From Rickettsia typhi (GTDB lineage Bacteria > Pseudomonadota > Gammaproteobacteria > Burkholderiales > Burkholderiaceae_C), in the NCBI GenBank assembly GCA_943325485.2, contig CALPPP020000001.1, positions 1 through 26,606 on the forward strand: a stretch of 26,606 nucleotides of DNA, given 5' to 3'. The notes under the pieces are model-generated. The model was not told the DNA's origin. It worked only from the letters and a program-made list of their open reading frames with translations, and made no database searches. Numbering within the stretch: the stretch's first letter is position 1; each line of letters opens with the position of its first letter. The translations under genes and the position numbers were made by a program. Shown in pieces: positions 3,130 to 16,859 of the stretch.

Positions 3130-3963
3130 ATGAATCACGTTTACCATTCGAACAGCACCTGGAGAAACCGAATTGAAGATTTCATGGAAAATCCATGGGT
3201 TCAAAATTTTTTGGTTTTTCTGATTTTGCTCAATGCCGTGATTCTCGGTTTAGAAACCGATGCCGACATCATGGACAAAATGTGGCCGCAGCTGCATTCA
3301 ATTGACCATGCAATTTTATGGATTTTCATTGCTGAAATTGTGGTTCTCATCACGGCCAGAGGGCTTACTTATTTCAAAGACCCTTGGTGTGTATTCGACT
3401 TTATTGTTGTAGGTATTGCGCTGATTCCTGCTTCTGGCTCTTTGTCTGTGTTGAGAGCTTTAAGAGTTTTGCGGGTACTTCGACTGATCAATAAAGTCGA
3501 AAGTATGCGCAAAGTGGTCGGCGGCTTGCTGAGCGCTTTACCAGGACTAGGCTCAGTTTTTGGCTTAATTTTGATTATTTTTTATGTGGCTGCAGTGATT
3601 GCGACCAATCTCTTTAAGCATGATTTTCCCCAATGGTTTGGCAACTTAGGTGCCAGTGCTTTTACTCTGTTTCAAATCATGACCTTGGAAGGTTGGTCAC
3701 AAGAATTGGCCAGACCCATCATGGAAGTATTCCCCTATGCATGGGTATTTTTTGTTATTTTTATTCTCATCGCCACTTTCATTGTCTTTAACCTCTTTAT
3801 TGCGGTCATTGTGGACTCCATCACGGCTGATAAAGAACAAGACCGAAAAGACCACGCACAATTTAACGCCATAGAACATGAGTTGCGCACCGTTCACCGC
3901 GAACTCAGTGAGTTGCGTCAGTTGCTTGAAAAGCGAACTGAGCAGTCGCCACCAGGCTCTTGA
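3130..3963 (+). CDS. Bacterial voltage-gated cation channel (BacNav family, TLEGW filter)
   Basis: A 277-residue six-helix channel subunit of the NaChBac/NavAb type; such proteins assemble as tetramers in the inner membrane. S1 is about 25-42, S2 60-77 with conserved E69, S3 85-100 with D90, and S4 has R109, R112, R115 and R118 spaced every three residues. The pore reads FTLFQIMTLEGWSQ (178-191), followed by S6 (203-230) with conserved N221. Residues about 237-268 form a heptad-rich helix like the family's C-terminal bundle. The filter has glycine (G188) in place of the serine of TLESW sodium channels; that glycine is known as a calcium-selectivity determinant in CavMr. The start at 3130 gives the expected short N-terminus but lacks a ribosome site. 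An MpaB-like gene follows after two bases. Confidence 0.93.
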   Translation: MNHVYHSNSTWRNRIEDFMENPWVQNFLVFLILLNAVILGLETDADIMDKMWPQLHSIDHAILWIFIAEIVVLITARGLTYFKDPWCVFDFIVVGIALIPASGSLSVLRALRVLRVLRLINKVESMRKVVGGLLSALPGLGSVFGLILIIFYVAAVIATNLFKHDFPQWFGNLGASAFTLFQIMTLEGWSQELARPIMEVFPYAWVFFVIFILIATFIVFNLFIAVIVDSITADKEQDRKDHAQFNAIEHELRTVHRELSELRQLLEKRTEQSPPGS

Positions 3964-3965
3964 CC

Positions 3966-4910
3966 ATGTTTAATTGGCCGCTTCATCACAACAGCGCCTT
4001 TGAATGCCGTGTGCGGTCGGCTGCTTTGACAATCCCTCAGCCTGTGCGTCATTTGATCGGTCAACACATCCGACAGATGACGGGCTCAACCCAGTCACTC
4101 GACAACTTCAAGCAGCCTTTAGGTGACCCCGGTCTATTGGGGCCCGCGTCCATGCCTTGGCGGGTCCATGCGCATTTCATCGGCATGATGGTAGGGGGCT
4201 TGTCCTCGCTGATGTTGCAAGCCCTGCATCCCCGCGCCTTGGCTGCGGTTTGGGACCATTCCAATTTTCGCCATGACCTCAAAGCCCGTTTGGGTCGAAC
4301 CGCTTACTTTGTTGCTATCACCACCTATGGCCCTAGCGAGTTGGCCTTGAAAGCCATAGACCGGGTCAACCGAATTCATGCCAATGTCCATGGCTTCATG
4401 CCCGATGGCTCTGCTTATGTGGCCAACGAACCTGAACTGCTGCGCTGGGTCCATTTAGGTGAGGTGAGCAGTTTTTTACGGGCCTACCAAAGTTTTTCAC
4501 TCAACCCACTGGACCACGCCGAACAAGACCGCTACTTGGGCGAAATGACCATGATTGGCAAGCACCTGGGGATAGAAGATTTGCCCCAAACCAAACAGGC
4601 CAGCGAAGAAGCATTGCTGGCCTTTTTGCCTGACTTGCGATTCGATCACCGCACTGCAGAGATCATCAAGGTGATTGAAAACTACCCCTCAAGCCTTTTG
4701 GACCGTCCTCTCATCAAGTTGGTGATCCAAGCCGCATTTGATGAGCTTCCTGATTGGGCCTTGGCCATGCTGGGACGAACGCCTTCAAGGCCTTTACAAA
4801 AACAAGCGGTACGCCATGCACTGCGCCTTGCGGGCTTACCACTTCAAGCAGCTTTGGACGAAGAAGGTGTCGCTGCCTTTTCGCGCCAAAGAATGGCGCT
4901 CCATCGCTGA
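3966..4910 (+). CDS. MpaB/latex-clearing-protein family oxygenase-like protein (DUF2236)
   Basis: The 314-residue product matches the DUF2236 family, which includes the fungal MpaB oxygenase and bacterial latex-clearing (Lcp) proteins. Visible hallmarks are an MPWRVHAHFIGMMVGG start of the core (about residue 63), LHPRALAAVWDHSNF (H88), a RVNRIHANVHG helix (H138, H142) and WVHLGEVSSFLRAY (H163). Many members are haem or metal proteins, but their reactions are mostly unknown, so no substrate is proposed. The ATG at 3966 starts three bases after the channel stop. A TTG at 3960 would overlap that stop, but is less likely. Co-transcription with the channel is probable and its meaning is unknown. 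No signal peptide is seen. Confidence 0.85.
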   Translation: MFNWPLHHNSAFECRVRSAALTIPQPVRHLIGQHIRQMTGSTQSLDNFKQPLGDPGLLGPASMPWRVHAHFIGMMVGGLSSLMLQALHPRALAAVWDHSNFRHDLKARLGRTAYFVAITTYGPSELALKAIDRVNRIHANVHGFMPDGSAYVANEPELLRWVHLGEVSSFLRAYQSFSLNPLDHAEQDRYLGEMTMIGKHLGIEDLPQTKQASEEALLAFLPDLRFDHRTAEIIKVIENYPSSLLDRPLIKLVIQAAFDELPDWALAMLGRTPSRPLQKQAVRHALRLAGLPLQAALDEEGVAAFSRQRMALHR

Positions 4911-4928
4911 GCCCGACTGCCCCACGAA

Positions 4929-4958
4929 GGTGCGCAACACTCTATGCGCACTTATTTC
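4929..4958 (+). terminator. Rho-independent terminator after the MpaB-like gene
   Basis: GTGCGCA (4930-4936) and TGCGCAC (4945-4951) make a seven-base GC-rich stem with an eight-base loop, followed by TTATTT. It lies 20 bases after the stop at 4910 and separates the channel unit from the ATP-grasp operon. The remaining 4959-5100 leader shows no convincing promoter boxes. Confidence 0.6.
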
Positions 4959-5100
4959 GAGCAAAAGTACCTGGTGCATTCCTTTTAAGCCCCTCAAACA
5001 GGCATATCCAAGAACTATTGCACTGAAAATTAGCGCAGTTTTGCTGGGCATAAAGTCTGCTTAAGAAGAGCTAACACCTACTCAATCAAGGCGGATCTTC

Positions 5101-6522
5101 ATGGCACACGCCATATTTGATGAAATGCGGCAATCCAACGGATTGGCACGGTCGCACTATGCCACCTTTGACGCATGGCTCAAAGGCATTTCTGCTGAAA
5201 CCGTGCAGCAAAAACAAACAGAAGCCGATTTGATATTTCGTCGCACGGGCATCACCTTTTCATTGAATGGCGACGAGGGTGGCACCGAACGCTTGATTCC
5301 CTCCGACTTGATTCCACGCATCATTGATGCATCGGAATGGGCGTTGATGGAAAAGGGACTGGTGCAACGGGTCACGGCCATCAATATGTTTTTGCATGAT
5401 GTCTATCACCAGCAAAACATCCTTCGTGCAGGTGTGGTCCCCAACGAGCAAGTATTGGCCAACGCACAGTTCATGCCCATGATGCTGGGCCTAGATTTAC
5501 CGCACCAAATTTACGCCCATATTGCGGGTGTCGACATCATTCGCCATGCCGACGGTAATTTTTATGTACTGGAAGACAACCTGCGTGTGCCATCAGGGGT
5601 GTCGTATATGTTGAGTAACCGCATCTTGATGATGCGACTCTTTCCCGATCTGTTCAGGCGTTATGCAGTTCGCCCAGTCGAACACTACCCCGCCCTCTTG
5701 CTTCAAACCTTGCGATCTTCAAGTTGGGTAGAGCAGCCTACGGTGGTGTTGCACACACCGGGGCGTTTTAACAGCGCCTATTTCGAACACGCTTTCTTGG
5801 CCAAGCAAATGGGCATTGAGTTGGTGGAGGGCTCCGACTTGTTTGTCAGAGATGGGTTTGTTTATATGCAAACCACCGAAGGGCCACAGCAAGTGGATGT
5901 GATCTACCGCCGGGTGGACGATACCTATATGGATCCTTTGTGCTTTCAAGCAGATTCTTATATTGGTGTGCCGGGTCTGGCTTCTGTGTACCGTCAGGGC
6001 AATGTCATCATCGCCAATGCACTGGGCACAGGTGTGGCGGACGATAAGTCCATCTACCCCTTTGTGCCGGAGATGATTCGCTTTTACTTGCAAGAAGAAC
6101 CTATTCTGAAGAATGTACAAACTTGGCAATGCCGTCATGCCGACGAACTGAGTTATGTCTTGGCTAACTTGAAAGACTTGGTGGTCAAAGAGGTGCATGG
6201 CGCAGGTGGCTACGGCATGTTGGTGGGTCCCGCCTCCAGTAAAAGCGAAATTGATTCATTTGCCAAACGCATCAAAGCCCATCCGGACAATTACATCGCA
6301 CAGCCCACCTTAAGTCTGTCCACCTGCCCTATTTTTGTCGACCAAGGTATTGCGCCTAGGCACATCGATTTGCGCCCGTTCGTGCTGATGGGGGACAAAA
6401 CCCGCATCGTGCCAGGTGGCTTGACCCGTGTGGCATTGCGTGAGGGCTCCTTGGTGGTGAACTCGTCTCAAGGCGGTGGCACCAAAGACACCTGGGTGCT
6501 TGAAGAGAGCGAGGCCAGTTGA
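5101..6522 (+). CDS. Circularly permuted ATP-grasp protein (DUF404/DUF407, COG2308 type)
   Basis: A 473-residue cytosolic protein of the circularly permuted ATP-grasp class, predicted to form an amide bond between a carboxylate and an amine using ATP, in the manner of glutathionylspermidine-synthase-like ligases. Visible elements are the FRRTGITFSLNGDEGGTER N-terminal stretch, VLEDNLRVPSG with E158, D159 and N160 as likely metal/ATP ligands, VIYRRVDDTYMDP, and the late nucleotide-binding motif VVKEVHGAGGYGM (K363, glycines 367-372), then RIVPGGLTRVAL near the end. AAGGCGG lies upstream of the ATG at 5101. Its stop overlaps the next ATG by one base (TGATG), so translation is coupled. The substrate is not known for this family. 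It is first in the four-gene Anbu operon. Confidence 0.92.
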   Translation: MAHAIFDEMRQSNGLARSHYATFDAWLKGISAETVQQKQTEADLIFRRTGITFSLNGDEGGTERLIPSDLIPRIIDASEWALMEKGLVQRVTAINMFLHDVYHQQNILRAGVVPNEQVLANAQFMPMMLGLDLPHQIYAHIAGVDIIRHADGNFYVLEDNLRVPSGVSYMLSNRILMMRLFPDLFRRYAVRPVEHYPALLLQTLRSSSWVEQPTVVLHTPGRFNSAYFEHAFLAKQMGIELVEGSDLFVRDGFVYMQTTEGPQQVDVIYRRVDDTYMDPLCFQADSYIGVPGLASVYRQGNVIIANALGTGVADDKSIYPFVPEMIRFYLQEEPILKNVQTWQCRHADELSYVLANLKDLVVKEVHGAGGYGMLVGPASSKSEIDSFAKRIKAHPDNYIAQPTLSLSTCPIFVDQGIAPRHIDLRPFVLMGDKTRIVPGGLTRVALREGSLVVNSSQGGGTKDTWVLEESEAS

Positions 6523-7472
6523 TGCTGTCTCGTGTTGCCGCCCAGTTGTATTGGATGTCACGCTACCTTGAACGTGCAGAGAACATGGCGCGTATTTTGG
6601 AGGTGGGTCAATCGTTTGCCTTGGTGTCCGCCAGCGATAACCAAGGCGACGATGCGGAGGCGGTGAAAGAACCCTTGGTCATCACCGACACACTGGCAGC
6701 CTTCGAAGCAACCGGCAAAACCATTCGAGCCGATCAAGTTGCGCAATTTTTAGCCTGGGACCCAGATCATCCTTCGTCTATTTTTAACAGCATTCAAGCC
6801 AGCAGAGAAAACGCTCGTGCGGTGCGGGGTGCGATGACGGTAGAAATGTGGGAGTGCATCAATGACACCTGGCTTGAATTACTGTCGCGTAAGAAAAAAA
6901 TGCTTCGCAACGACACCACAGTGGACTCCAGCTTTTTTGAATGGATCAAACAACGTTCCCATCTGTTCCGTGGCGTGACCTTTGCCACCATTCAGCGTGA
7001 CCAACCCTACCATTTCATACGTTTAGGCACTTACCTTGAGCGAGCCGATAACACTGCGCGCATTCTCAGCGTGAAAACCCGACGTCAATCGGAGGGCGGA
7101 AGCGACATGGTGGACGACTATTACCGGCTTGGCGCCGTGCTTCGCTCGGTCAGCGCTTTGGAGGCATACCGAGATACCTACCGCGACACCATCGATGCCG
7201 ATCGTGTGGCTGAATTACTGATATTCAATCCTCGAGTTCCACGTTCTCTGCACTTTTGTTTGGATGAGTGCGCCCTCATACTCAGTCAACTGCCTCAGCA
7301 AACGGGACGCGAAGCTCGCAAACGTTGTGCCAACCTTTTGACCCACTTGCGTTACGGCGCATTGAAAGAAGTCTATGACCACGGTCTAGAGGCTTACCTT
7401 GAAAAGTTTGTGGAAGAAAACATAGGCCTAGCCCAAGCCGTGCAAACCGAGTACTTGGAAGTTTTGTCATGA
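6522..7472 (+). CDS. Alpha-E domain protein (DUF403, COG2307 type)
   Basis: A 316-residue all-helical protein of the alpha-E family, which is nearly always found with the circularly permuted ATP-grasp ligase; its biochemical role is not established. Two copies of the family signature are visible: YLERAENMAR (E17, R18, N21) and YLERADNTAR (E173, R174, N177). This indicates an internal duplication that could provide two matching acidic/basic sites. I chose the ATG at 6522, which overlaps the ATP-grasp stop, over the TTG one codon earlier. The gene stop overlaps the next ATG by four bases (ATGA). In context it is a likely partner, scaffold or substrate-binding subunit of the ligase; that is inference. 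Confidence 0.92.
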   Translation: MLSRVAAQLYWMSRYLERAENMARILEVGQSFALVSASDNQGDDAEAVKEPLVITDTLAAFEATGKTIRADQVAQFLAWDPDHPSSIFNSIQASRENARAVRGAMTVEMWECINDTWLELLSRKKKMLRNDTTVDSSFFEWIKQRSHLFRGVTFATIQRDQPYHFIRLGTYLERADNTARILSVKTRRQSEGGSDMVDDYYRLGAVLRSVSALEAYRDTYRDTIDADRVAELLIFNPRVPRSLHFCLDECALILSQLPQQTGREARKRCANLLTHLRYGALKEVYDHGLEAYLEKFVEENIGLAQAVQTEYLEVLS

Positions 7473-8272
7473 AGTTGCAAATCTTCCATGAAACCACCTA
7501 TACCTACGACCAAGCCATGCGCCGCAGCATCCAAATGCTGCGCATGTCGCCACCCAAAACCGCCAGGCAGCATGTCAGTCAATGGCAATTGACCCTGCCC
7601 GCCAAGGCCACGCCATGGACTGATGCTTATGGCAACCAGTGCCATTGTTTGGTGATGGACCAACCCGTGCAGTCCATTGTGCTCAAAGCGCAAGGCATGA
7701 TCGAGTTAATGCAAACCGACCAAGGCGAACCTGAAGGCCCCGTGCCACCCGCGGTGTTCTTGCGTATCACGCCCTTGACGCAACCAGATGCAGCCATCAA
7801 AGCTTTTATCGAGCCTTTCAGGTCCACCGTGAAGTCCAGACCGTATTTGGGTCTGCACGATGTGATGCTGGCCTTGCTCAATCACATGCCTTACGAAAAA
7901 GGCCATACCCAAGTGGGCTTTAGCGCAGCGCAATCGTTTGCGGTGGGCAAGGGTGTATGCCAAGACCATACCCATGTATTTTTAGCCTGTGTAAGGCACT
8001 TAGGCTTAGCTGCTCGTTATGTCAGCGGCTACCTGAACTCGACTGATCAGGGCCATGTGGCCAGCCATGCGTGGGCCGAGGTATGGATTGGGGGGCGTTG
8101 GGTAGGTTTTGACGTCAGCAATTCGGTGGGCGCAGACCAAGGCCATATTCGCTTGGCGCATGGACTGGACTACGATGATGCGAGCCCTGTTCGGGGTGTG
8201 CGCATTGGAGGTGGCAACGAAACCTTGGACAGTTTTGCGAAAGTAGAATCGCTCAACTTTACTCAGCAATAA
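7469..8272 (+). CDS. Transglutaminase-like cysteine protease/acyltransferase (COG1305 type)
   Basis: A 267-residue protein with a bacterial transglutaminase N-terminal domain (KLQIFHETTYTYD, about 2-100) and a papain-like transglutaminase core. The catalytic triad is intact: C164 in GKGVCQDHTHVF, H200 in SHAWAEVW and D215 in GFDVSN. Such enzymes cut or transfer amide and isopeptide bonds through a thioester. No signal peptide is seen, so the protein should be cytosolic together with its neighbours. The start overlaps the alpha-E stop (ATGA) and the Anbu gene follows after six bases. Given the ligase upstream and peptidase downstream, it may attach or remove the peptide made by the ATP-grasp protein; that is inference. 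Confidence 0.93.
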   Translation: MKLQIFHETTYTYDQAMRRSIQMLRMSPPKTARQHVSQWQLTLPAKATPWTDAYGNQCHCLVMDQPVQSIVLKAQGMIELMQTDQGEPEGPVPPAVFLRITPLTQPDAAIKAFIEPFRSTVKSRPYLGLHDVMLALLNHMPYEKGHTQVGFSAAQSFAVGKGVCQDHTHVFLACVRHLGLAARYVSGYLNSTDQGHVASHAWAEVWIGGRWVGFDVSNSVGADQGHIRLAHGLDYDDASPVRGVRIGGGNETLDSFAKVESLNFTQQ

Positions 8273-8278
8273 ACCGCT

Positions 8279-9010
8279 ATGACCTATTGTGTTGCGATGG
8301 CATTGAATGAGGGCTTGTTATTCGCCTCGGATTCACGCACCAATGCCGGTGTGGACCACGTATCCACCTTTTGCAAGATGACGGTGTTTGAAACGCCCGG
8401 TGAAGGCGTGATCGTCATGCTCAACAGTGGCAACTTGGCCACCACACAGCAGGTGGTGAGTCGCATCAAGCAGCATGCACATCACAGCGGTTCTCCTTTG
8501 ACGGCCATGGGTTCGCTGTTCTGCGTGGCTGAGTTGTTGGGTCGTGAATTGCGCGAGGTCATCACCACCACACAAAACGAAGCGCCTGAGCAATCGTCGG
8601 TTGATTTTTCAGCGACTTTTTTGGTGGGAGGACAACTCAAAGGCGAAGCGCCACGTCTCTTCATGGTCTATCCCCAAGGCAATTTCATCGAGTCGTCAGC
8701 TGACACCTCGTTTTTCCAAATCGGCGAGAGCAAATACGGTAAACCGATTTTGGACCGCGTCATTCAACCCGAACTGGGCCTCTACAAGGCAGCCAAATGC
8801 GCTTTGGTGTCGTTCGACTCCACCATCAAAAGTAATCTCTCCGTCGGTTTGCCCATCGACTTTGCCATGGTCAAACGAGATGGACTGTCTGTGTTCAAGC
8901 GTCACCGCATTGATGAAGGTGATGATTATTTCCGTGAATTGCGTAGCAGTTGGAGCCAAGGTCTGCGCAATGTCTTCAACCAACTCCCTGAACCTGATTG
9001 GCTGAAATAA
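8279..9010 (+). CDS. Anbu (BPH) proteasome-like Ntn-hydrolase
   Basis: A 243-residue member of the Anbu family, the bacterial ancestral proteasome-like beta subunit (COG3484 type). After removal of the initiator methionine, Thr is the N-terminal nucleophile (MTYCVAMALNEG). Counting from it, D17 in ASDSRT and K32 in TFCKMT fill the other proteasome catalytic positions, so the active site looks complete and no propeptide is needed. Other Anbu proteins form open, lock-washer-like oligomers and no general substrate is known. It is the last gene of the ATP-grasp/alpha-E/transglutaminase operon, starting six bases after the transglutaminase stop without an obvious ribosome site. No dedicated unfoldase ATPase or HslV partner is present in the window. 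Confidence 0.94.
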   Translation: MTYCVAMALNEGLLFASDSRTNAGVDHVSTFCKMTVFETPGEGVIVMLNSGNLATTQQVVSRIKQHAHHSGSPLTAMGSLFCVAELLGRELREVITTTQNEAPEQSSVDFSATFLVGGQLKGEAPRLFMVYPQGNFIESSADTSFFQIGESKYGKPILDRVIQPELGLYKAAKCALVSFDSTIKSNLSVGLPIDFAMVKRDGLSVFKRHRIDEGDDYFRELRSSWSQGLRNVFNQLPEPDWLK

Positions 9011-9038: not shown

Positions 9039-9980
9039 ATGACCTACGACTCCACACTCCCCTACCCGCGTGACTTGGTTGGCTACGGCCAACAAGCACC
9101 CCATGCCAACTGGCCAGGTCAGGCGCGGGTGGCTGTTCAGTTCGTTTTGAACTATGAGGAAGGCGGCGAAAACGCGGTGCTGCATGGCGACGCGGGTTCC
9201 GAGCAATTTCTCTCAGAGATGTTCAACCCTCCCAGCTTTGAAGCTCGCCACCTCAGCATGGAAGGCATTTACGAGTACGGCTCTCGGGTAGGCGTGTGGC
9301 GTATCTTGCGAGAATTCGAGCAACGAAAACTCCCCCTGACGGTGTTTGGTGTGAGCATGGCATTGCAACGCCACCCCGAACTCACCTCGGCTTTGGTGGA
9401 ATTGGGCCACGAAATTGCCTGCCACGGTTGGCGCTGGATCCACTACCAACACATGGACGAAGCCACAGAACGTGAACACATGCGCATAGGCATGGACATC
9501 ATCCAACAGATGACGGGTCAAGCTCCCTTAGGGTGGTACACCGGCCGCGACAGCCCCAACACACGCCGACTGGTGGTGGATCACGGCGGTTTTGCGTATG
9601 ACAGCGACTATTACGGTGACGATCTGCCGTTTTGGATGAAAGTTGCCAAAACCAATGGCGATGTGGTGCCGCATTTGGTCGTGCCTTACACCCTCGACAC
9701 CAATGACATGCGCTTTTCCCTGCCGCAAGGTTTTTCGCAAGCCGAGGATTTTTTCATCTACTTGCGCGACAGCTTTGATGCGCTCTATGCCGAAGGTGCT
9801 GAGTCACCCAAGATGATGAGCATAGGCATGCACTGTCGTTTGCTGGGCCGGCCTGGCCGCATCGTGGCTTTGCAAAAATTCTTAGACCATATCGCCAAAT
9901 TTGAGCGTGTATGGGTATGTAAACGCATTGACATCGCCCAGCACTGGAAAACCCATCACCCTTTCAAGGACAGCCCGTGA
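9039..9980 (+). CDS. puuE: PuuE-type allantoinase / polysaccharide-deacetylase-fold amidohydrolase
   Basis: A 313-residue NodB-fold protein closely resembling PuuE, the metal-independent allantoinase that opens allantoin to allantoate. Supporting stretches are YPRDLVGYGQ at the N-terminus, VQFVLNYEEGGEN, SRVGVWRILREF, GHEIACHGWRWIHYQ and LGWYTGRDSPNTRRLV with YDSDYYGDDLPFW. Length and order match PuuE (about 310 residues). Other NodB-fold members of this type act on different amides, so the exact substrate is open. The ATG at 9039 is 28 bases after the Anbu stop, and its own stop overlaps the GTG start of the M20 gene by four bases (GTGA), so the two hydrolases are translationally coupled. 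Their products may act in sequence on one compound. Confidence 0.82.
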   Translation: MTYDSTLPYPRDLVGYGQQAPHANWPGQARVAVQFVLNYEEGGENAVLHGDAGSEQFLSEMFNPPSFEARHLSMEGIYEYGSRVGVWRILREFEQRKLPLTVFGVSMALQRHPELTSALVELGHEIACHGWRWIHYQHMDEATEREHMRIGMDIIQQMTGQAPLGWYTGRDSPNTRRLVVDHGGFAYDSDYYGDDLPFWMKVAKTNGDVVPHLVVPYTLDTNDMRFSLPQGFSQAEDFFIYLRDSFDALYAEGAESPKMMSIGMHCRLLGRPGRIVALQKFLDHIAKFERVWVCKRIDIAQHWKTHHPFKDSP

Positions 9981-11221
9981 GTACCTACAAGCAACTTGAC
10001 GAATGGATAGATGCACACTTCGATGAACAAGTGCGATTTTTGCAAGAACTGGTTCGCATACCCACCGACACACCACCGGGCAACAACACGCCCCATGCTT
10101 TACGCACAGCCGAGTTGCTAGAGGGCATGGGCCTGCCTTCGCAACGCTTTGAGGTACCCCAAGCTGAGGTTCAAGCGCAAGGCCTCACCTCCATCACCAA
10201 TTTGATTGTCAAACGGCACTACGGAGAAGGCTTGGTGATTGCTTTGAACGCCCATGGTGACGTGGTGCCTCCCGGCGAAGGCTGGACACATGACCCCTAT
10301 GGCGGTGAGATAGTGGATGGGCAGATGTATGGCCGCGCCACTGCGGTCAGCAAATGCGATTTTTCTACCTTCACTTTTGCGCTCCGCGCTTTAGAAGCCG
10401 TCGCCAAACCCAGCAAAGGCCAAGTGGAATTGCACTTCACCTACGACGAAGAATTTGGCGGCGAAGTGGGTCCAGGGTGGCTTTTGTCGCATGGCCATAC
10501 TCATCCCGACTTGATGATCGCCGCAGGGTTTAGCTACCAAATCATCACGGCGCACAACGGCTGCTTGCAAATGGAGGTCACTGTGCACGGCAAGATGGCC
10601 CATGCGGCCATTCCTGATAGCGGCATCGATGCCTTGCAAGGCGCTGTTGCCCTGCTGAACGCCTTGTATGCGCAAAACGCTTTGTACAAACACATTCGCT
10701 CGAATGTGGAAGGCATTTCCCACCCTTATTTGAATGTGGGCTTGATCGAGGGTGGCACCAACACCAACGTCATACCGGGCAAGGTGGTGTTCAAACTCGA
10801 CAGGCGAATGATTCCCGAGGAAGATCCTGTTCAGGTGGAAGCCTCCATCCGCGAAGTATTGGCCAAAGCGGTTGAGGACTACAACGCTTCACGAGAGGCT
10901 CGCCATGCTATCCATATTGATGTACGTCGCATGTTGATGGCCCATGCCATGAAGCCTTTGCCTGGCAACAAGCCTTTGGTGAATGCCCTGCAACAACACG
11001 CCAGCGACATATTTGGTGAACCCATTCCAGCGGTGGGCACACCGCTCTACACCGATGTACGTTTGTATGTGGAACGTGGCATTCCCGGCGTGATCTACGG
11101 CGCCGGTCCGCGCACGGTGCTGGAGTCACACGCCAAGCGAGCCGATGAACGTTTGAATTTAGACGATTTACGCCGAGCTACCAAGGTGATTGCACGAAGC
11201 TTGTCTGACTTGCTGAGCTGA
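9977..11221 (+). CDS. M20-family metallohydrolase (ArgE/DapE/ACY1/CPG2 group)
   Basis: A 414-residue cytosolic M20 enzyme, a family that removes acyl or amide groups with a two-metal centre. Visible ligands are H93 and D95 in NAHGDVV, the E158/E159 pair in TYDEEFGGE and the late SHAKRADERL histidine near residue 389. A central dimerisation domain with HGKMAHAAIP is present. The bridging-metal segment reads MYGRATAVSKCDF rather than the usual YGxGxxDxKG, so the aspartate (D128) appears displaced. The start is GTG, overlapping the puuE stop. With PuuE, a racemase-like gene and an ABC importer nearby, its substrate may be a ureide, N-carbamoyl or N-acyl amino acid; this is inference. ArgE itself is less likely in this context. 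Confidence 0.85.
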   Translation: MSTYKQLDEWIDAHFDEQVRFLQELVRIPTDTPPGNNTPHALRTAELLEGMGLPSQRFEVPQAEVQAQGLTSITNLIVKRHYGEGLVIALNAHGDVVPPGEGWTHDPYGGEIVDGQMYGRATAVSKCDFSTFTFALRALEAVAKPSKGQVELHFTYDEEFGGEVGPGWLLSHGHTHPDLMIAAGFSYQIITAHNGCLQMEVTVHGKMAHAAIPDSGIDALQGAVALLNALYAQNALYKHIRSNVEGISHPYLNVGLIEGGTNTNVIPGKVVFKLDRRMIPEEDPVQVEASIREVLAKAVEDYNASREARHAIHIDVRRMLMAHAMKPLPGNKPLVNALQQHASDIFGEPIPAVGTPLYTDVRLYVERGIPGVIYGAGPRTVLESHAKRADERLNLDDLRRATKVIARSLSDLLS

Positions 11222-11231
11222 CTCAACACCT

Positions 11232-11975
11232 TCAGCGGTCAATCAATCGAAAATCCATGGTGGGCGGTAAGTGATTCCAAGCCGTGTCAAAGCCATTGAT
11301 GGAGCGAGCGCTCAAGGGCATTTGCCGCTGTAAGTAAAGCTCGGTCCCTGCACTGACGCTGTCAATCAAGGGTAAATCAACCTCGGCTTGAAGCTCGGCG
11401 GCATAACCGGCCAAACCAGCGCCGCCCAAGATGATGGATCGCACACCACTTCGTGCAGCTTGTTGACAGGCCACGCCCAGTACCCTGAGTGCATTGTGAC
11501 GATCGGCCAACAACTGAGCACCGGTTTCTTGAACCAATTCAATGTGCTGCAGCTGCGAGGCAAAGCCCAAACTTAAAGCCAATCGCTCCAACATGGGTTT
11601 CCAACGTGCACCCCCTGTGACAATGGCAAACGGGCCTGATCGAGCAGCTTGAATGAAAGAAGCCTCTGCCAAACCAGATACCGGACAGGCACTGGCCTCC
11701 CGTAAAGCAAACAAACCCGGATCACCAAAACAAGCGATCAACACACCATCCGGGGCATGTGCAGAGGTATGCAGATGATGCGCCCAAGCGTCAAGCAATG
11801 CATGACCCGCCACCGCATGACTGGCTTCGCAAGCGATATAAGGTGCGCCAAAACGGGCGTTGATGCAATCGAGTTGCACATCAGAGGGCAACAGCGTTTG
11901 CAAATGTGACTGCAAGCGCTGGGTGGTCGCCTGCCCCGTATTTGGGTTGATGACAAGCAAGTGCCGCATGGCCAT
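11232..11975 (-). CDS. Asp/Glu/hydantoin racemase-family protein, single-cysteine variant
   Basis: A 247-residue member of the Asp/Glu racemase superfamily, closest in style to hydantoin and allantoin racemases. It has the LLVINPNTG start and the first catalytic cysteine, C82 in IACFGDPGLFAL. The second catalytic position, normally LGCAGM, reads LGGAGL with G185, so the two-base racemase mechanism is not complete. It might be a lyase, decarboxylase or isomerase-like member. The ATG at 11975 overlaps the GntR stop by one base (TGATG); a second ATG at 11969 is possible. It is the last gene of the ABC-transporter operon and its end is ten bases from the end of the convergent M20 gene. Confidence 0.82.
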   Translation of the reverse strand: MAMRHLLVINPNTGQATTQRLQSHLQTLLPSDVQLDCINARFGAPYIACEASHAVAGHALLDAWAHHLHTSAHAPDGVLIACFGDPGLFALREASACPVSGLAEASFIQAARSGPFAIVTGGARWKPMLERLALSLGFASQLQHIELVQETGAQLLADRHNALRVLGVACQQAARSGVRSIILGGAGLAGYAAELQAEVDLPLIDSVSAGTELYLQRQMPLSARSINGFDTAWNHLPPTMDFRLIDR

Positions 11976-12691
11976 CAGTCTTGCAGCAGTTGCTCTAAGT
12001 CAACCAACTGCGGCTGTACCATGGAAAAATTCAGCTGGCTCTCAATGGTATTGAGGTGATCCACCATTTGCTTGGGCGCCTCGAGGTGGTCGCGCAAGCG
12101 AATGGCGTCGAGTAACTTTTTGTGTTCTTGGCAACCACAGGCAGCATGTTGGCTGCGCAAACTAGTGTCACGTGAACCCCAAGCCATCAAGATCAAGGAG
12201 TTGCGAGAAATCAACTCATGCATCATGCGACCAAAGGTCTCATGGCCAGCCACTTCGGCAATATACAAATGGAATTCTCCAGACAGTCGAATGGCCTTGT
12301 GCCAGTCACCCGCCTCTTGGGCTTGCCTCTCTTGAGCCAGCATGCGTGACAGGTGAGCAATATCGTGTGCTTGTGCTTTGTCCATGAAGCGCAGCACCAG
12401 CACAGGCTCGATCAACCTGCGTGCTTCGAACACCTCAATAGATTCTTGTTGCGTGGGTTGCGATACCGATGCGCCACGGTTGTGCGTGAGGGTGATGATG
12501 CGCTCATTGGCCAGCCTGACCAAGATGGGTTTGATACGGGTGCGAGAGACACCAAAAATGCCGCACAAGCGGTCTTCGGTCAAACGGGTGCCAGGTGGCA
12601 AGCGGTGGTCCAACACAGACTCAACGATGCGCTCGTAAATGGCTTGATCGCTCCAAACAGCTGGTGCATCCTTGAGAGCAGGACTGCTCAT
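11975..12691 (-). CDS. GntR-family regulator, FCD type
   Basis: A 238-residue regulator with an N-terminal winged helix (AIYERIVESVLDHRLPPGT, then LCGIFGVSRTRIKPILVRL) and a C-terminal all-helical FCD ligand domain (about 85-220) carrying EFHLYIAEVAGHETF and QEHKKLLDAI. FCD regulators usually sense small organic acids or the pathway substrate. I chose the ATG at 12691 because AGGAGG lies six bases upstream and the start overlaps the permease stop (ATGA); a longer version from 12712 lacks this. Its place inside the importer operon suggests autoregulated control of uptake. A possible operator, TTGTATGCAA, lies upstream of the first operon gene near 16902. Confidence 0.93.
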   Translation of the reverse strand: MSSPALKDAPAVWSDQAIYERIVESVLDHRLPPGTRLTEDRLCGIFGVSRTRIKPILVRLANERIITLTHNRGASVSQPTQQESIEVFEARRLIEPVLVLRFMDKAQAHDIAHLSRMLAQERQAQEAGDWHKAIRLSGEFHLYIAEVAGHETFGRMMHELISRNSLILMAWGSRDTSLRSQHAACGCQEHKKLLDAIRLRDHLEAPKQMVDHLNTIESQLNFSMVQPQLVDLEQLLQD

Positions 12692-13572
12692 CCACGCCTC
12701 CTGCGCAACCATGCACCGGTGCCCAATGCCAATCCAATCACAGCAAAGGAAATCAAGGTCGTCACACTGCCCAAAGCATAAATAGCTGGATTGGTGACCG
12801 TGGTGGTCAAGCCCTGCAACTCCAAGGGCAAGGTGTTCACGTCCCCAATGGCTTGCGAGGTACGGGCAATTTCATCCCAGCTCAAAGTGAAACCAAACAT
12901 ACCTACACCCACGACCGAAGGCGCAATCAAAGGGAACACCACATGCTTGAAAGTCTGCCATGGCGTAGCGCCCAAATCTTCGGCAGCCTCTTCATATGCA
13001 GGGTTGAAGCGGTTGAATACCGCAAACATGATGAGCAAACCAAAAGGCAAAGTCCACGTTAAATGCGCGCCCATGGCCGAGGTAAACAGACCTAAAGAGG
13101 TGCCAAAGTTTTCTAAGGACTCGGTCATGCCCCATGCTTCAAACAAAGATTTGATACCGCTATCGAGCAACCTGAATTGCAAGCCAATGCCCAAGGACAC
13201 GATGATGGAGGGCATGATGAGACTCGCCACAGTGATGTAAAAAAGTGCATCGCCACCCCGCAATTTTTTGCGAAATGCCAAGCCCGCCAACACCGACATG
13301 AACATGGTCAAGAACATGACCACCGCGCCCAACAACATGGACCGTTTGAAGGCTGCGCCAATGTCCACTACACCCAAGCCCTCGGCCAATTTGTAGAACC
13401 AATGCAAGGACATACCCCGCAGAGGGAATGTCAAGCCACCCTCAGGGCCTTGGAAACTCAAAATAAAAATGGTGATCATGGGGCCGTAGAGAAACAGCAC
13501 AAAGGCCACAAACACGGCCAGCAACCACCAAAAACCTGCAGGTTTTTTCTGTGAGTAGGAGACAGAAGCCAT
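12688..13572 (-). CDS. ABC transporter permease, PotC type
   Basis: An inner-membrane permease of a spermidine/putrescine-type (PotC-like) importer with about six transmembrane helices, the first at FWWLLAVFVAFVLFLYG. The EAA loop that docks the ATPase is EEAAEDLGATPWQTFKHVVF. The frame can begin at ATG 13578, overlapping the upstream permease stop, or at ATG 13572. I prefer 13572 because AAGGAG sits eight bases before it but only two before 13578. It is paired with the PotB-type gene upstream and followed by gntR with a four-base overlap. Pot-type systems carry polyamines but also many other small organic solutes, so the solute is not fixed. Confidence 0.93.
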   Translation of the reverse strand: MASVSYSQKKPAGFWWLLAVFVAFVLFLYGPMITIFILSFQGPEGGLTFPLRGMSLHWFYKLAEGLGVVDIGAAFKRSMLLGAVVMFLTMFMSVLAGLAFRKKLRGGDALFYITVASLIMPSIIVSLGIGLQFRLLDSGIKSLFEAWGMTESLENFGTSLGLFTSAMGAHLTWTLPFGLLIMFAVFNRFNPAYEEAAEDLGATPWQTFKHVVFPLIAPSVVGVGMFGFTLSWDEIARTSQAIGDVNTLPLELQGLTTTVTNPAIYALGSVTTLISFAVIGLALGTGAWLRRRRG

Positions 13573-13574
13573 GC

Positions 13575-14486
13575 TCATAGCTCCTTGCGAATATCAACCA
13601 AACGGGTCAGGCCCCAAATGATCATGAGCACCACCAACAACAAAATCACGGCGTTGGCGGCAGCCAGAGGGAACTGCAAAAACGAGGTTTGTACTTGGAT
13701 GATTTTGCCTACCGACGCTATTTGTTGCCCACCCATGACGCCGATGGTGACGAAGTCACCCATCACAATGGTGATGACAAAAATCGACCCAATGATGATG
13801 CCGGTGCGGGACAAGGGAATGATCACATTCCACAAGGTTTGCCAAGGCGTAGCGCCTGTGTCGTAGGCGGCTTCAATCAATGAGCGATCGATACGCATCA
13901 TGGAATTGAAGATGGGAACAATCATGAACATGGTGTAGAGATGCACAAAAGCCAACACCACAGAAAATTGTGAAAACAGCAACCACTCCACCGGTTGATT
14001 GACCAAGCCCATACCCATGAGGGTTTGGTTCACCAAGCCATTGCGCCCCAGCAAGGGAATCCAAGAAATCATGCGGATGACATTCGAGGTCCAAAAGGGC
14101 ACGGTACACAACACGAACAACAGCGTCTGCGTGGAAGAAGACTGAACGCAAAACGCCAAAAAATAAGCAATGGCAAAACCCAAGACCAAGGTAATCGCCC
14201 ACACCATCAAGCTGATGCTGATGGTGGACCAGTAGGTCTTCAAAGTGACACACATGTCCCCGTAGTCGTTCACGCGCGAGCAGCCTTCAAAAATGCTGAA
14301 GTAACTGTGCAGCGTGAAAGTGGGAATCATTTCATATTCATTGAATTCCCAAAAGCTGACCATGAAGATCAGACCTAAGGGAACCAAGAAAAACAGCAGA
14401 AACACCAGTGAATAAGGCGTGGCTTGCCACCGCGCAGAAATGCGCAGAGGGCTTGCCGTTTTCACGGTGTTCTGCTGTGTGCTCAT
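13575..14486 (-). CDS. ABC transporter permease, PotB type
   Basis: A 303-residue inner-membrane permease of the PotB/HisM-like binding-protein-dependent class. The first helix is PYSLVFLLFFLVPLGLIFMV. A long periplasmic loop with two cysteines (FEGCSRVNDYGDMC) follows, then the remaining helices and an EAA loop, IEAAYDTGATPWQTLWNVII. AAGG lies very close to the ATG at 14486, giving poor spacing, so translation may depend on coupling with the binding-protein gene that ends 17 bases upstream. It should form a heterodimeric channel with the PotC-type partner. Confidence 0.93.
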   Translation of the reverse strand: MSTQQNTVKTASPLRISARWQATPYSLVFLLFFLVPLGLIFMVSFWEFNEYEMIPTFTLHSYFSIFEGCSRVNDYGDMCVTLKTYWSTISISLMVWAITLVLGFAIAYFLAFCVQSSSTQTLLFVLCTVPFWTSNVIRMISWIPLLGRNGLVNQTLMGMGLVNQPVEWLLFSQFSVVLAFVHLYTMFMIVPIFNSMMRIDRSLIEAAYDTGATPWQTLWNVIIPLSRTGIIIGSIFVITIVMGDFVTIGVMGGQQIASVGKIIQVQTSFLQFPLAAANAVILLLVVLMIIWGLTRLVDIRKEL

Positions 14487-14503
14487 GCCTTAATTAGCAA
14501 TGA

Positions 14504-15778
14504 TCAAGCGGCAACGAATTCGTTCCACTTCTTAACCATGTACTCGTTTTCATCCATCACGGCATTCCAGCAAGCGATGCCACCCATGCGGGTTTCATAG
14601 CTGCCGCCGTCACGCACGCTGCCGGCTTTGGCCAGCAAGTCACCGTTGGGTGACTTGATGTCTTTGGCAGCAGGTTTGCCTTCCATCCAGTAAGCCCACT
14701 CGTAGGCTTCCATTTTGGCTTTGGCTGTGTCCAACACCGCGCTGTAATAGCCTTGGCGATTCAGGTAAGCACCCGCCCAGCCGTCCAAGAACCAGTTGAT
14801 GAACTCGTAGACGCCGTCGGCTTTTTTGCCGGTGACAGACTTGGGTACGCCAAATCCAGCTGCCCATGCGCGGTATCCCTCTTTCAAAGGCTGAAACACG
14901 CAGTCGATGCCTTTGGTACGCACCGCAGTCACCGCGGGTGACCACATGGACTGGATCACCACTTCGCCAGAAGCCATCAAGTTGACGGATTCGTTGAAGT
15001 CTTTCCACAAAGCACGGAATTGACCGGCTTTTTTGGCCTCAATCAAAGTCTTGATGGTCAAGTCGATTTCTGCCTTGGTCATATTGCCTTTGTCGGGGTA
15101 TTTGTAGATACCCTTGGCTTCCACCACCATGGCCGCATCCATGATGCCAATGGAGGGGATGTTCAAAATGGCAGCCTTGCCTTTGAATTCAGGGTTGAGC
15201 AACTCGGCCCAAGAGCTGATGGGACGCTTGATCAGGTCAGGACGGATGCCCAAGGTGTCGGCGTTGTACACGGTGGGGATAAGGGTCATGTACTGTGTAG
15301 GCGTGGCAGAGAAGGTCTTGCTATCGGGCTTGTCCAAATACATGACTTTCTTGGGCGCGGTACCTTGGTCACCCACTTTTTTACCAGCCACTTCACCTTT
15401 GGTAAACAGAGAGGTGATTTTGTCGGCGTTTTTAATACGCTTGGTATCGATACCCAACAAATTGCCTGTAGGCACAATTTTCTTCAAAGAGAAGTATTCG
15501 GTATCGATCAGATCGAACGAATTGGGGGCAGTCACAGCACGCTTGGTGACGTCATCGGTGGTGACAGCCACGTATTGAATTTCAATGCCAGTGGCTTTTT
15601 TGAATTCTTCTGCAATTTTTTTGTCTTGGTTCACTGCTGTGCCAAGGTAACGCAGCACGATTTTTTCTTGGGCATGTACCGCAGGGAAAATGCCGCTGGC
15701 CAAAATGGCAGCAGTGCCTTTTAAAACCGCACGGCGGTCTGTCGCCACTTGCTCTACAGGGAGTGTTTCGTCTTTCAT
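14504..15778 (-). CDS. ABC transporter periplasmic binding protein, PotD-like, Tat-type signal
   Basis: A 424-residue solute-binding protein for the adjacent Pot-type importer. Residues 13-36 are a twin-arginine-like signal (TDRRAVLKG, hydrophobic stretch, then AVHA/Q as the likely cleavage site), so export in folded form is plausible. The mature part starts KIVLRYLGTAVNQDKKIAEE, with two alternating lobes as in PotD/PotF. Conserved polyamine-binding residues cannot be confirmed without alignment, and it is longer than PotD (about 350). AAGGAAG lies upstream of the ATG at 15778. It follows the ATPase gene after a 61-base gap with a terminator-like hairpin, which may tune relative amounts. Confidence 0.9.
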   Translation of the reverse strand: MKDETLPVEQVATDRRAVLKGTAAILASGIFPAVHAQEKIVLRYLGTAVNQDKKIAEEFKKATGIEIQYVAVTTDDVTKRAVTAPNSFDLIDTEYFSLKKIVPTGNLLGIDTKRIKNADKITSLFTKGEVAGKKVGDQGTAPKKVMYLDKPDSKTFSATPTQYMTLIPTVYNADTLGIRPDLIKRPISSWAELLNPEFKGKAAILNIPSIGIMDAAMVVEAKGIYKYPDKGNMTKAEIDLTIKTLIEAKKAGQFRALWKDFNESVNLMASGEVVIQSMWSPAVTAVRTKGIDCVFQPLKEGYRAWAAGFGVPKSVTGKKADGVYEFINWFLDGWAGAYLNRQGYYSAVLDTAKAKMEAYEWAYWMEGKPAAKDIKSPNGDLLAKAGSVRDGGSYETRMGGIACWNAVMDENEYMVKKWNEFVAA

Positions 15779-15798
15779 GGTCTTCCTTTTACGGGGTT

Positions 15799-15820
15799 AA
15801 AAAACCTGAGATCGTCAGGC
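15799..15820 (-). terminator. Intercistronic terminator/attenuator-like hairpin
   Basis: On the minus strand CCTGA-CGATC-TCAGG is followed directly by TTTTTT, a short five-base stem (six with a G-U pair) and T-run. It sits between the ATPase and binding-protein genes. The stem is weak, so partial termination is more likely than full stop. Confidence 0.42.
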
Positions 15821-15839
15821 GGCGAGGGTGAACAGCATT

Positions 15840-16859
15840 TCAATGGGCAGGTAGCACATGGCCATCCGCTTCTTGCCACTGCAAGTGGTAGGTGTGTCCT
15901 GGGGTCCATTGGGAATTGACACTGGACTCAGGCAACATCACGCTCATGGCTTCGGTGTGGGGCCCCTGAGGCTCAAACGCCAACAAGCAGTAACTTCCTT
16001 GGAACTCAATGTCGATCAGTGAGGCCTGCACGCTAGGGCTGCTGCTTGTCTGAGATGATTCAAGCACTGCAATTTTGTCGCTGCGAACCGCGACCAAGCC
16101 TTGCGGTGTTTTGACAAGATTGTGACCACCCATGAAGCGGGCAACAAACTCAGAAGCAGGACGGTTAAACACTTCTTGCGGCGTACCTGCTTGCTCAATG
16201 CGGCCATGGTTCATCACCACCATGGTGTCTGCCAAGGCCATGGCCTCTTCTTGCGAATGCGTGACATGAATGAAGGTCAAGCCCAATTCTTTTTGCCAAC
16301 GGCGCAATTCGGCACGCATTTGTATGCGCAAAAACGGATCGAGTGCCGACAAGGGCTCATCGAGCAAAAGTACACGAGGCTCCATGATGAGCGCTCGCGC
16401 CAAAGCAATGCGTTGCTGCTGACCGCCCGATAACTCCGAAGGGAAACGTTGCGCATAAGCGCTCATGGCTACACGCTCTAGCAAGGCATGGGCACGTTGG
16501 TGTCTCTCTGCTTTGCCCACACCTCGCATCTTCAGGCTGAAAGCGACGTTGTCTAAAGAGTTCAGATGGGGAAACAAGGCATAGCTTTGGAACATCATGG
16601 CGGTGCCACGCTCTGCGGCCGTGGCATGGGTGATGTTGCGGCCTCCCAAAATCACATCGCCCGAAGTCACCACCTCGTGACCGGCCACCATGCGCAAGGT
16701 AGAAGTTTTGCCGCAACCCGAGGGGCCAAGCAAACAACAGTAATGGTTGGTGGGGACTTTTAAATCAATGCTGTCCACAGCAATGCTGTCAGCGCTGTAG
16801 TGCTTGGACAAGGACACCAATTCCAGTGTGTTGTCCTTGCTGTGTGTGTGGAGAGACAT
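15840..16859 (-). CDS. ABC transporter ATP-binding protein, PotA type
   Basis: A 339-residue ATPase that energises the Pot-type importer, at the inner face of the membrane. Walker A is GPSGCGKTST (45-54), the Q-loop is MMFQSYALFPH, the signature is LSGGQQQR (143-150), Walker B is LLLDEPLSALD (164-174) and the switch histidine is in HVTHSQEEA. A TOBE-like C-terminal domain starts near GGHNLVKTPQG. AGGG is six bases before the ATG at 16859. It is the first gene of the operon, which continues with the binding protein, two permeases, gntR and the racemase-like gene. Confidence 0.95.
   Translation of the reverse strand: MSLHTHSKDNTLELVSLSKHYSADSIAVDSIDLKVPTNHYCCLLGPSGCGKTSTLRMVAGHEVVTSGDVILGGRNITHATAAERGTAMMFQSYALFPHLNSLDNVAFSLKMRGVGKAERHQRAHALLERVAMSAYAQRFPSELSGGQQQRIALARALIMEPRVLLLDEPLSALDPFLRIQMRAELRRWQKELGLTFIHVTHSQEEAMALADTMVVMNHGRIEQAGTPQEVFNRPASEFVARFMGGHNLVKTPQGLVAVRSDKIAVLESSQTSSSPSVQASLIDIEFQGSYCLLAFEPQGPHTEAMSVMLPESSVNSQWTPGHTYHLQWQEADGHVLPAH

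Follow-up and report, generated by a model that had tools for sequence, protein, structure and literature searches.

The window analyzed here is the whole 26,606-nucleotide stretch formed by the first positions of contig CALPPP020000001.1 (assembly GCA_943325485.2), which comes from an incomplete genome assembly (1.5 Mb, 59% complete). It carries, at positions 5101 to 9010, an operon of four genes encoding an ATP-grasp ligase, an Alpha-E protein, a transglutaminase-like (TG) protein and Anbu, a proteasome-beta-like protein with an N-terminal threonine; this is the published Anbu operon and no new system. Ahead of the ligase gene, the sequence suggests a nitrogen-type promoter. Such nitrogen control, unseen in an earlier note on the same DNA, is the strongest clue to function that we found, and we tentatively propose, with a probability of roughly 0.45, that the four genes form a nitrogen-starvation-induced amide ligase-and-hydrolase cassette.

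Three promoter elements precede the ligase gene, all on the + strand. The sigma54 -24/-12 element (TGGGCATAAAGTCTGCT, 5045 to 5061) has the form GG-N10-GC and agrees with the consensus at 9 of 13 positions. Upstream lie a first NtrC-like dyad (GCCCCACGAAGGTGC, 4919 to 4933), which matches 9/10 of GCACY-N5-RGTGC and is located at -197 from the Phe codon of FDEM, and a second one (GCACTTATTTCGAGC, 4948 to 4962; 8/10), 29 base pairs (bp) after the first, giving a tandem with a summed score of 17. The sigma54 score is the number of matches to YTGGCACGNNNNTTGCW over 13 informative positions, GG and GC being mandatory; we take this to be the sigma54 consensus, and the dyad pattern above to be that of NtrC. 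The sigma54 consensus is given as GGcacg-N4-ttGC in PMC5491218. The window element draws its support from being conserved, at an equivalent position, across the main part of the window clade, composed of the window and 31 close-relative loci (L002 to L032, 73-100% identity). Eight of these 32 loci (L007, L013, L015, L017, L020, L023, L024 and L029) were left unscored because the ligase start, or the 300 bp before it, is missing or broken. In the aligned leaders of the main subclade, the -24/-12 element is found approximately 40 bp ahead of the ligase start and is preceded by paired GCAC...GTGC boxes, and in the L026 subclade the element occupies another fixed place, at -85 from the FNEM codon. 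All 24 scorable clade loci reach a sigma54 score of at least 9 (9.6% of random and 12.8% of other open reading frame (ORF) upstream segments) and 17 of them at least 10 (2.4% random, 3.9% other-ORF leaders). NtrC-like dyads of at least 9/10 are present in 22/24 clade leaders and in 24/47 leaders of other Burkholderiales, compared with 6-8% in the controls. A summed dyad score of at least 17 is reached by 12/24 clade loci vs 1.8% of control segments, and L002 and L003 have their tandem dyads at the same 29-bp spacing.

The signal extends well beyond the clade. Of 80 other Burkholderiales loci fetched (some genera twice), 56 were scored, the remainder being 22 without an unfused ligase above 620 bits in the stretch and two (L131, L154) without an anchor. 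A sigma54 score of at least 10 was obtained at 45 of the 56 (controls 2.9% and 3.4%) and of at least 12 at 24 (controls approximately 0.2%), and 40 of the 45 are situated 52-99 bp upstream of the anchor codon. Because the loci are related, these counts are not independent and the count by family is fairer: 23/28 families reach 10 at least once and 20/28 at every scored locus. In the window's own family, all eight linked operons fetched later reach 11; of the 13 dispersed ligase loci, the 11 that could be anchored all score at least 10 within 250 bp, one of them at -160. Stand-alone Anbu genes reach 10 within 250 bp in only 3/15 cases (control approximately 4% for 230 bp), which suggests that Anbu itself would mostly not be the regulated part. 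The regulators are encoded in the clade genomes, with rpoN found in 7/7 and ntrC over the family cut-off in 5/7; the six relatives account for 6/6 and 5/6, respectively, and in the window's own genome rpoN is matched in part (profile positions 4-110 of 160), and the ntrC matches fall below the cut-off. Since the signal is patchier further out and the cyanobacterial copies are without it, this control appears as a proteobacterial, and above all Burkholderiales, feature; sigma54 was absent in the three genomes searched outside this group (one Cyanobium, one Synechococcus and one Mycolicibacterium). We did not find this order-wide promoter described in the open-access papers searched, and it may be in print elsewhere.

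Published experiments, cited here from excerpts of the papers concerned, are in agreement with nitrogen control for Burkholderia cenocepacia and partly so for Pseudomonas putida. In the ntrC mutant of B. cenocepacia H111, the genes I35_5080-5083 (DUF404/407, DUF403, TG and large TG) change by log2 -8.2, -9.4, -9.4 and -6.0, respectively, and they are named among the common sigma54 targets (PMC5491218). In P. putida, PP_2685-2688 rise in nitrogen limitation (PMC7801951, PMC3325844, PMC8050072); on nitrate compared with ammonium, PP_2685 is up by log2 4.44 and PP_2688 by log2 3.99, and under nitrogen limitation a 3.7-fold response is seen for the promoter ahead of the ATP-grasp gene PP_2688 (PMC8050072). 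A marine metagenome study also links urea metabolism with DUF403/404/407 and the TG domain (PMC3597751).

To place Anbu relative to the ligase pair, their distribution is informative. Among 399 Burkholderiales genomes, Anbu was found in 192, Alpha-E in 212 and both in 188; Alpha-E occurred without Anbu in 24 of the 212, and Anbu without Alpha-E in only four; in one of these the Anbu match has E 4e-15, and in another it lies at a contig end. In 29 further chosen genomes, Alpha-E was always present (29/29), including the 23 outside the clade (23/23, drawn from 49 non-clade genome loci), in most of which the stretch around Anbu holds neither ligase nor Alpha-E. Anbu thus seldom occurs without Alpha-E, while the reverse is not rare, and Anbu probably acts on the product of the ligase pair or downstream of it; this co-occurrence in related genomes leads us to infer that the ligase pair is the core and Anbu an optional hydrolase dependent on it. 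The completeness of the operon claimed in the earlier note is then relative: the contiguous order is real, but the ligase/Alpha-E pair also occurs without Anbu, and Anbu sometimes lies far from the ligase. Eight genomes with at least two Anbu matches each (G022, G059, G088, G143, G144, G158, G216 and G232) have one match with a stop codon inside the matched stretch, which may lie near the end or reflect a pseudogene or an artefact.

The four genes, all on the + strand, are joined by 4-bp overlaps and one 6-bp gap, as tightly coupled as the earlier note had described. The ligase gene (5101 to 6522) encodes a circularly permuted type 2 ATP-grasp protein of 473 amino acids, an amide ligase by family, with 548.8 bits for CP_ATPgrasp_2 (PF14403, Pfam cut-off 32) and an alignment with 3n6x at E 2e-208. 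Alpha-E (6522 to 7472) scores 301.7 bits, over the cut-off of PF04168, with its ER motif present; translation more likely starts at the ATG at 6522 than at the TTG at 6519, from which the ORF (6519 to 7472) would encode 317 amino acids. The TG protein (7469 to 8272, 267 amino acids) matches Bact_transglu_N (65.5 bits) and Transglut_core (67.7 bits) and aligns with 3isr, in support of a TG fold. Anbu (8279 to 9010, 243 amino acids) gives 31.0 bits with the Proteasome profile, and its residues 2-241 align to the solved Anbu chain 5loy (E 3e-90); four more deposited sequences match, two of them entered as 'Peptidase'. The family assignments of the earlier note are thus confirmed by profile and structure alignments, the latter giving hydrolase-type folds for the TG protein and Anbu. 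The comparison of gene order, which it had called for across Burkholderiales, shows the same four-gene order in 26 of the 31 close-relative loci, the remaining five being broken off by contig ends. For a short peptide gene, which it had suggested looking for near the operon, there is no intergenic space among the four genes, and the 190-bp leader is occupied by the promoter elements.

The catalytic residues read from the sequence by the earlier note are indeed all there: Cys164, His200 and Asp215 in the TG protein, and Thr1 (after Met), Asp17 and Lys32 in Anbu. Among residues that reach 95% conservation or more in the loci fetched from outside the window clade, the window retains 172/174 in the ATP-grasp protein (58 sequences), 52/55 in Alpha-E (54 sequences), 13/13 in the TG protein (76 sequences; His200 is not among these 13) and 54/56 in Anbu (127 sequences). 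At the S1-pocket positions, taken from PMC5666114, the window has T20 F30 N48 L52 T55 compared with T20 F30 T48 L52 S55 in Anbu-1 of P. aeruginosa, so that F30 and L52 are kept and two polar positions differ. In the wider TG set, the His200 column is His in 71/106 rows, some of which may be misaligned, and in an alignment of 57 rows (the window and 56 of 120 listed relatives) Cys164 is absent in seven, with Arg in place of His200 in six of these. With Cys164, and mostly His200, lost, the TG protein of some lineages cannot be catalytic in the usual way. The relatives P0210, P0226, P0228, P0231, P0236 and P0238, in which both residues are replaced and Asp215 is kept, are likely pseudo-enzymes, judging from their sequences. 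Alpha-E has an internal duplication (hhalign E 3.5e-12 over 84 columns, 35% identity), its halves carrying ERAEN and ERADN at residues 18 and 174 counted from TTG 6519; the Pfam description names one conserved ER motif, and the window protein has two ERA(E/D)N motifs. Fold comparison of its predicted model (predicted local distance difference test score 86) gave no confident match.

From these elements, we propose the following course for the cassette. In nitrogen shortage, NtrC bound at the boxes near 4919-4962 would activate the sigma54 polymerase at 5045-5061, as the conserved sites suggest for the window, and the operon would then be transcribed, a nitrogen response being published for the B. 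cenocepacia and P. putida relatives. The ATP-grasp ligase with Alpha-E would use ATP to couple a carboxylate with an amine, and the resulting amide conjugate would more likely be one of a peptide or an amine metabolite than of a protein. The TG-like cysteine enzyme and Anbu could then cut or transfer the amide bond, so that the nitrogen-containing parts would be reused. Three observations favor a small-molecule or peptide conjugate over a protein tag: no unfoldase or tag gene is seen among the window genes, the loci in which Anbu adjoins an FGase-domain amidohydrolase (type C below) carry a small-amide hydrolase family, and the neighbours of the operon are enzymes of small nitrogen compounds (allantoinase, M20 hydrolase and hydantoin-type racemase).

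Several facts weigh against this proposal. To our knowledge, no substrate, product or phenotype of the Anbu operon is known. The window sigma54 element, with 9/13, is by itself at chance level, and the window as a whole has no excess of sigma54-type sites. Among other Burkholderiales, 11 of the 56 scored loci have no site of at least 10, including 3/3 of family f7 and 2/2 of f41, and Anbu-less ligase loci are divided between four with and three without such a site. Farther away, a score of 10 is reached by 7/15 loci of the same class and by 9/25 in the rest of the phylum (controls 4% in both cases, with start anchors less sure); the latter have no excess of NtrC dyads (2/25 at 9 or more, control 6%), and the exact NtcA box was found in one of ten cyanobacterial leaders and not in nine. 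The P. putida data are also not uniform: PP_2686-2688 are still induced 14-20-fold in the rpoN mutant and PP_2685 (Anbu) changes only 1.12-fold in the wild type (PMC7801951). The promoter next to PP_2685 is nitrogen-insensitive (PMC8050072), which, together with the response before PP_2688, fits a site located before the ligase. Expression is elsewhere cited as unchanged under various conditions, except in nitrogen-limited P. putida (PMC5666114), and, according to the excerpts, Anbu hydrolysed none of the model substrates tested (PMC6376114, PMC5666114).

A second hypothesis, possible but clearly less probable than the cassette, is protein tagging, in which the ligase and Alpha-E would mark proteins with a peptide or an amino acid, Anbu would degrade them and the TG protein would edit the mark, as a Gram-negative counterpart of the Pup-proteasome system. 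In mycobacteria, Pup-proteasome recycling matters in nitrogen starvation; the nitrogen control of the operon is consistent with such a role, and the near confinement of Anbu to Alpha-E genomes is what would be expected of an eraser or reader. Anbu, with its proteasome-beta fold, forms an open split ring, proteasome inhibitors were bound at Thr1 in P. aeruginosa, and the authors argue for protein degradation and against a role in peptide synthesis (PMC5666114). On the other side, no unfoldase or dedicated tag protein is found among the scanned genes of the window (no genome-wide search was made), the operon offers no space for a tag gene, and ligase and Alpha-E occur without Anbu in some genomes (24/212). 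As far as the excerpts go, two studies saw no hydrolysis (PMC6376114, PMC5666114). In one of them, the ATP-grasp protein of the Yersinia bercovieri operon releases phosphate from ATP, no peptidase or amidase activity of Anbu was found, and pull-downs detected no specific binding between Anbu and the other products of the operon (PMC6376114). These results neither establish nor exclude the cycle of peptide-tag synthesis and turnover inferred in the earlier note, whose families, coupling, residues and known link hold. The fuller version, an NtrC-switched Pup-proteasome counterpart in which ligase and Alpha-E mark proteins or peptides, the TG protein edits, Anbu degrades and nitrogen is recycled, we regard as a little more doubtful still; if true, it would assign a function to an old branch of the proteasome fold.

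It seems rather unlikely that the nitrogen link is incidental, with an operon product destined for the envelope or for secretion and sigma54 sites that serve another enhancer-binding protein or signal. RloABC, another ATP-grasp/TG/protease set, does have a part in stress tolerance, with proteases that are secreted and a TG protein in the inner membrane (PMC12239564), the loci outside the class have no excess of NtrC-type dyads, and induction persists in the rpoN mutant in one P. putida study (PMC7801951); the occurrence of NtrC-type dyads together with the sigma54 site and the ntrC-mutant data of B. cenocepacia (PMC5491218) speak against it. Least likely of all is bulk degradation of peptides or proteins by Anbu alone to feed nitrogen-starved cells, with the linked ligase and TG protein acting separately, which would account for the 15/80 fetched Burkholderiales stretches with Anbu and neither ligase nor TG and for the inhibitor binding (PMC5666114), but not for the genome-wide tie to Alpha-E (188/192, and 29/29 chosen genomes) or for stand-alone Anbu genes mostly without sigma54 sites (3/15 reach 10).

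The gene set of the window probably extends past Anbu. A PuuE-type allantoinase gene (9039 to 9980, + strand; TIGR03212, 503.6 bits, cut-off 424.6) begins 28 bp after Anbu and overlaps by 4 bp with a gene for an ArgE/DapE-like M20-family amidohydrolase (9977 to 11221, + strand; TIGR01910, 211.9 bits, just under the cut-off of 217.6); from this spacing, both are probably read through from the operon. They open a ureide and amide nitrogen neighbourhood (9039-16859) that continues on the - strand with a racemase of the Asp/Glu/hydantoin type, a GntR regulator and an ABC transporter. PuuE is the immediate downstream neighbour of Anbu in the window and in L002 and L003; in L004, L005, L014 and L019 it is found 4-9 kb downstream. 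On the other side (3130-4910), an ion-channel gene is followed with a 4-bp overlap by an MPAB/Lcp-type oxygenase gene, a pair also found upstream in L002 and L003.

Three contexts were distinguished: type A, as in the window (ligase, Alpha-E, TG, Anbu); type B (ligase, Alpha-E, Anbu, large TG); and type C (Anbu, FGase-domain amidohydrolase and small TG, usually without an adjoining ligase). Examples of type C are L033 (10723-12385) and L043 (7239-9490), where the neighbours of Anbu are an N-formylglutamate-amidohydrolase-like protein and a small TG, and a ligase is not adjacent. The type C Anbu proteins fall in one clade (support 100/100, 21 rows), which also holds two stand-alone proteins and two with a ligase nearby. 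In the window's family, the first Burkholderiales sampling gave stand-alone Anbu in 7/8 loci; in one of them, L111, the gene beside Anbu is presumably mutS. Linked type A operons elsewhere in the family (8 of 10 loci, from members with 55-60% identical Anbu, one of the eight without TG) form other branches than the window clade. Within the window's genus, Anbu was detected in 35 of 61 sampled genomes, many incomplete: 10 have the window kind (80-100% identity), 25 another kind (48-51%) and none both. Three of those with the other kind have it alone, and these three group with the family's stand-alone Anbu, outside the window clade; in G689, a complete genome of the genus, Anbu and an unfused Alpha-E are 0.7 Mb apart. 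A single clade for both kinds was rejected (approximately unbiased (AU) test, p 5e-7, quick tree), and the ligase tree agrees (AU p 0.02); the quick tree included 7 of the 31 clade loci and other trees 10. Horizontal replacement is the simplest reading, and old paralogues with differential loss may be the alternative. The other clade genomes have one Alpha-E and one Anbu each (6/6). The record titles of L022, L025 and L078, which name Klebsiella pneumoniae or Bordetella parapertussis, seem incorrect; L022 and L025 show 78-79% matches to the freshwater Comamonadaceae clade and are probably mislabelled metagenome bins.

The nitrogen-starvation promoter conserved in most Burkholderiales families tested points to a condition for experiments, and its location marks the ligase, not Anbu, as the lead gene, with Alpha-E as its near-constant partner. 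The activity tests in the 2017-2021 Anbu papers used, by their excerpts, standard proteasome substrates; the function of the Anbu operon now becomes a question directly testable by experiment in a laboratory strain.

The link between the four families invoked by the earlier note is established in the literature: PMC5666114 and PMC6376114 both present the four-gene Anbu operon and attribute it to Iyer et al. 2009. The operon of Y. bercovieri, Pseudomonas and others, as these excerpts give it, has the same families, order and Thr1/Asp17/Lys32 as the window, where the copy is followed in addition by the allantoinase and the M20 hydrolase; compared with P. aeruginosa Anbu, the window has Asn at S1 position 48 (Thr there) and Thr at 55 (Ser there). 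The window copy is part of a freshwater Comamonadaceae clade, and the six further genomes of this clade that were tested have no second, dispersed set. B. cenocepacia I35_5080-5083 share with the window the cluster of ATP-grasp, Alpha-E and TG and the sigma54/NtrC control, but include a large second TG, with no Anbu named in the excerpts (PMC5491218). In the type C loci of Methylococcales and Synechococcus, the TG stands beside Anbu as in the window and Alpha-E elsewhere in the genomes asked; these loci differ by usually having no ligase adjoining Anbu (L040, L051 and L058 have one within approximately 5 kb), by an FGase domain instead (2/2 proteins tested) and by an Anbu in a clade of its own. 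RimK/RimB and RloABC, like the window, pair an ATP-grasp ligase with a peptidase, but with a RimK-like ATP-grasp and aspartic (retropepsin-like) peptidases, the excerpts naming neither Alpha-E nor Anbu (PMC12239564).

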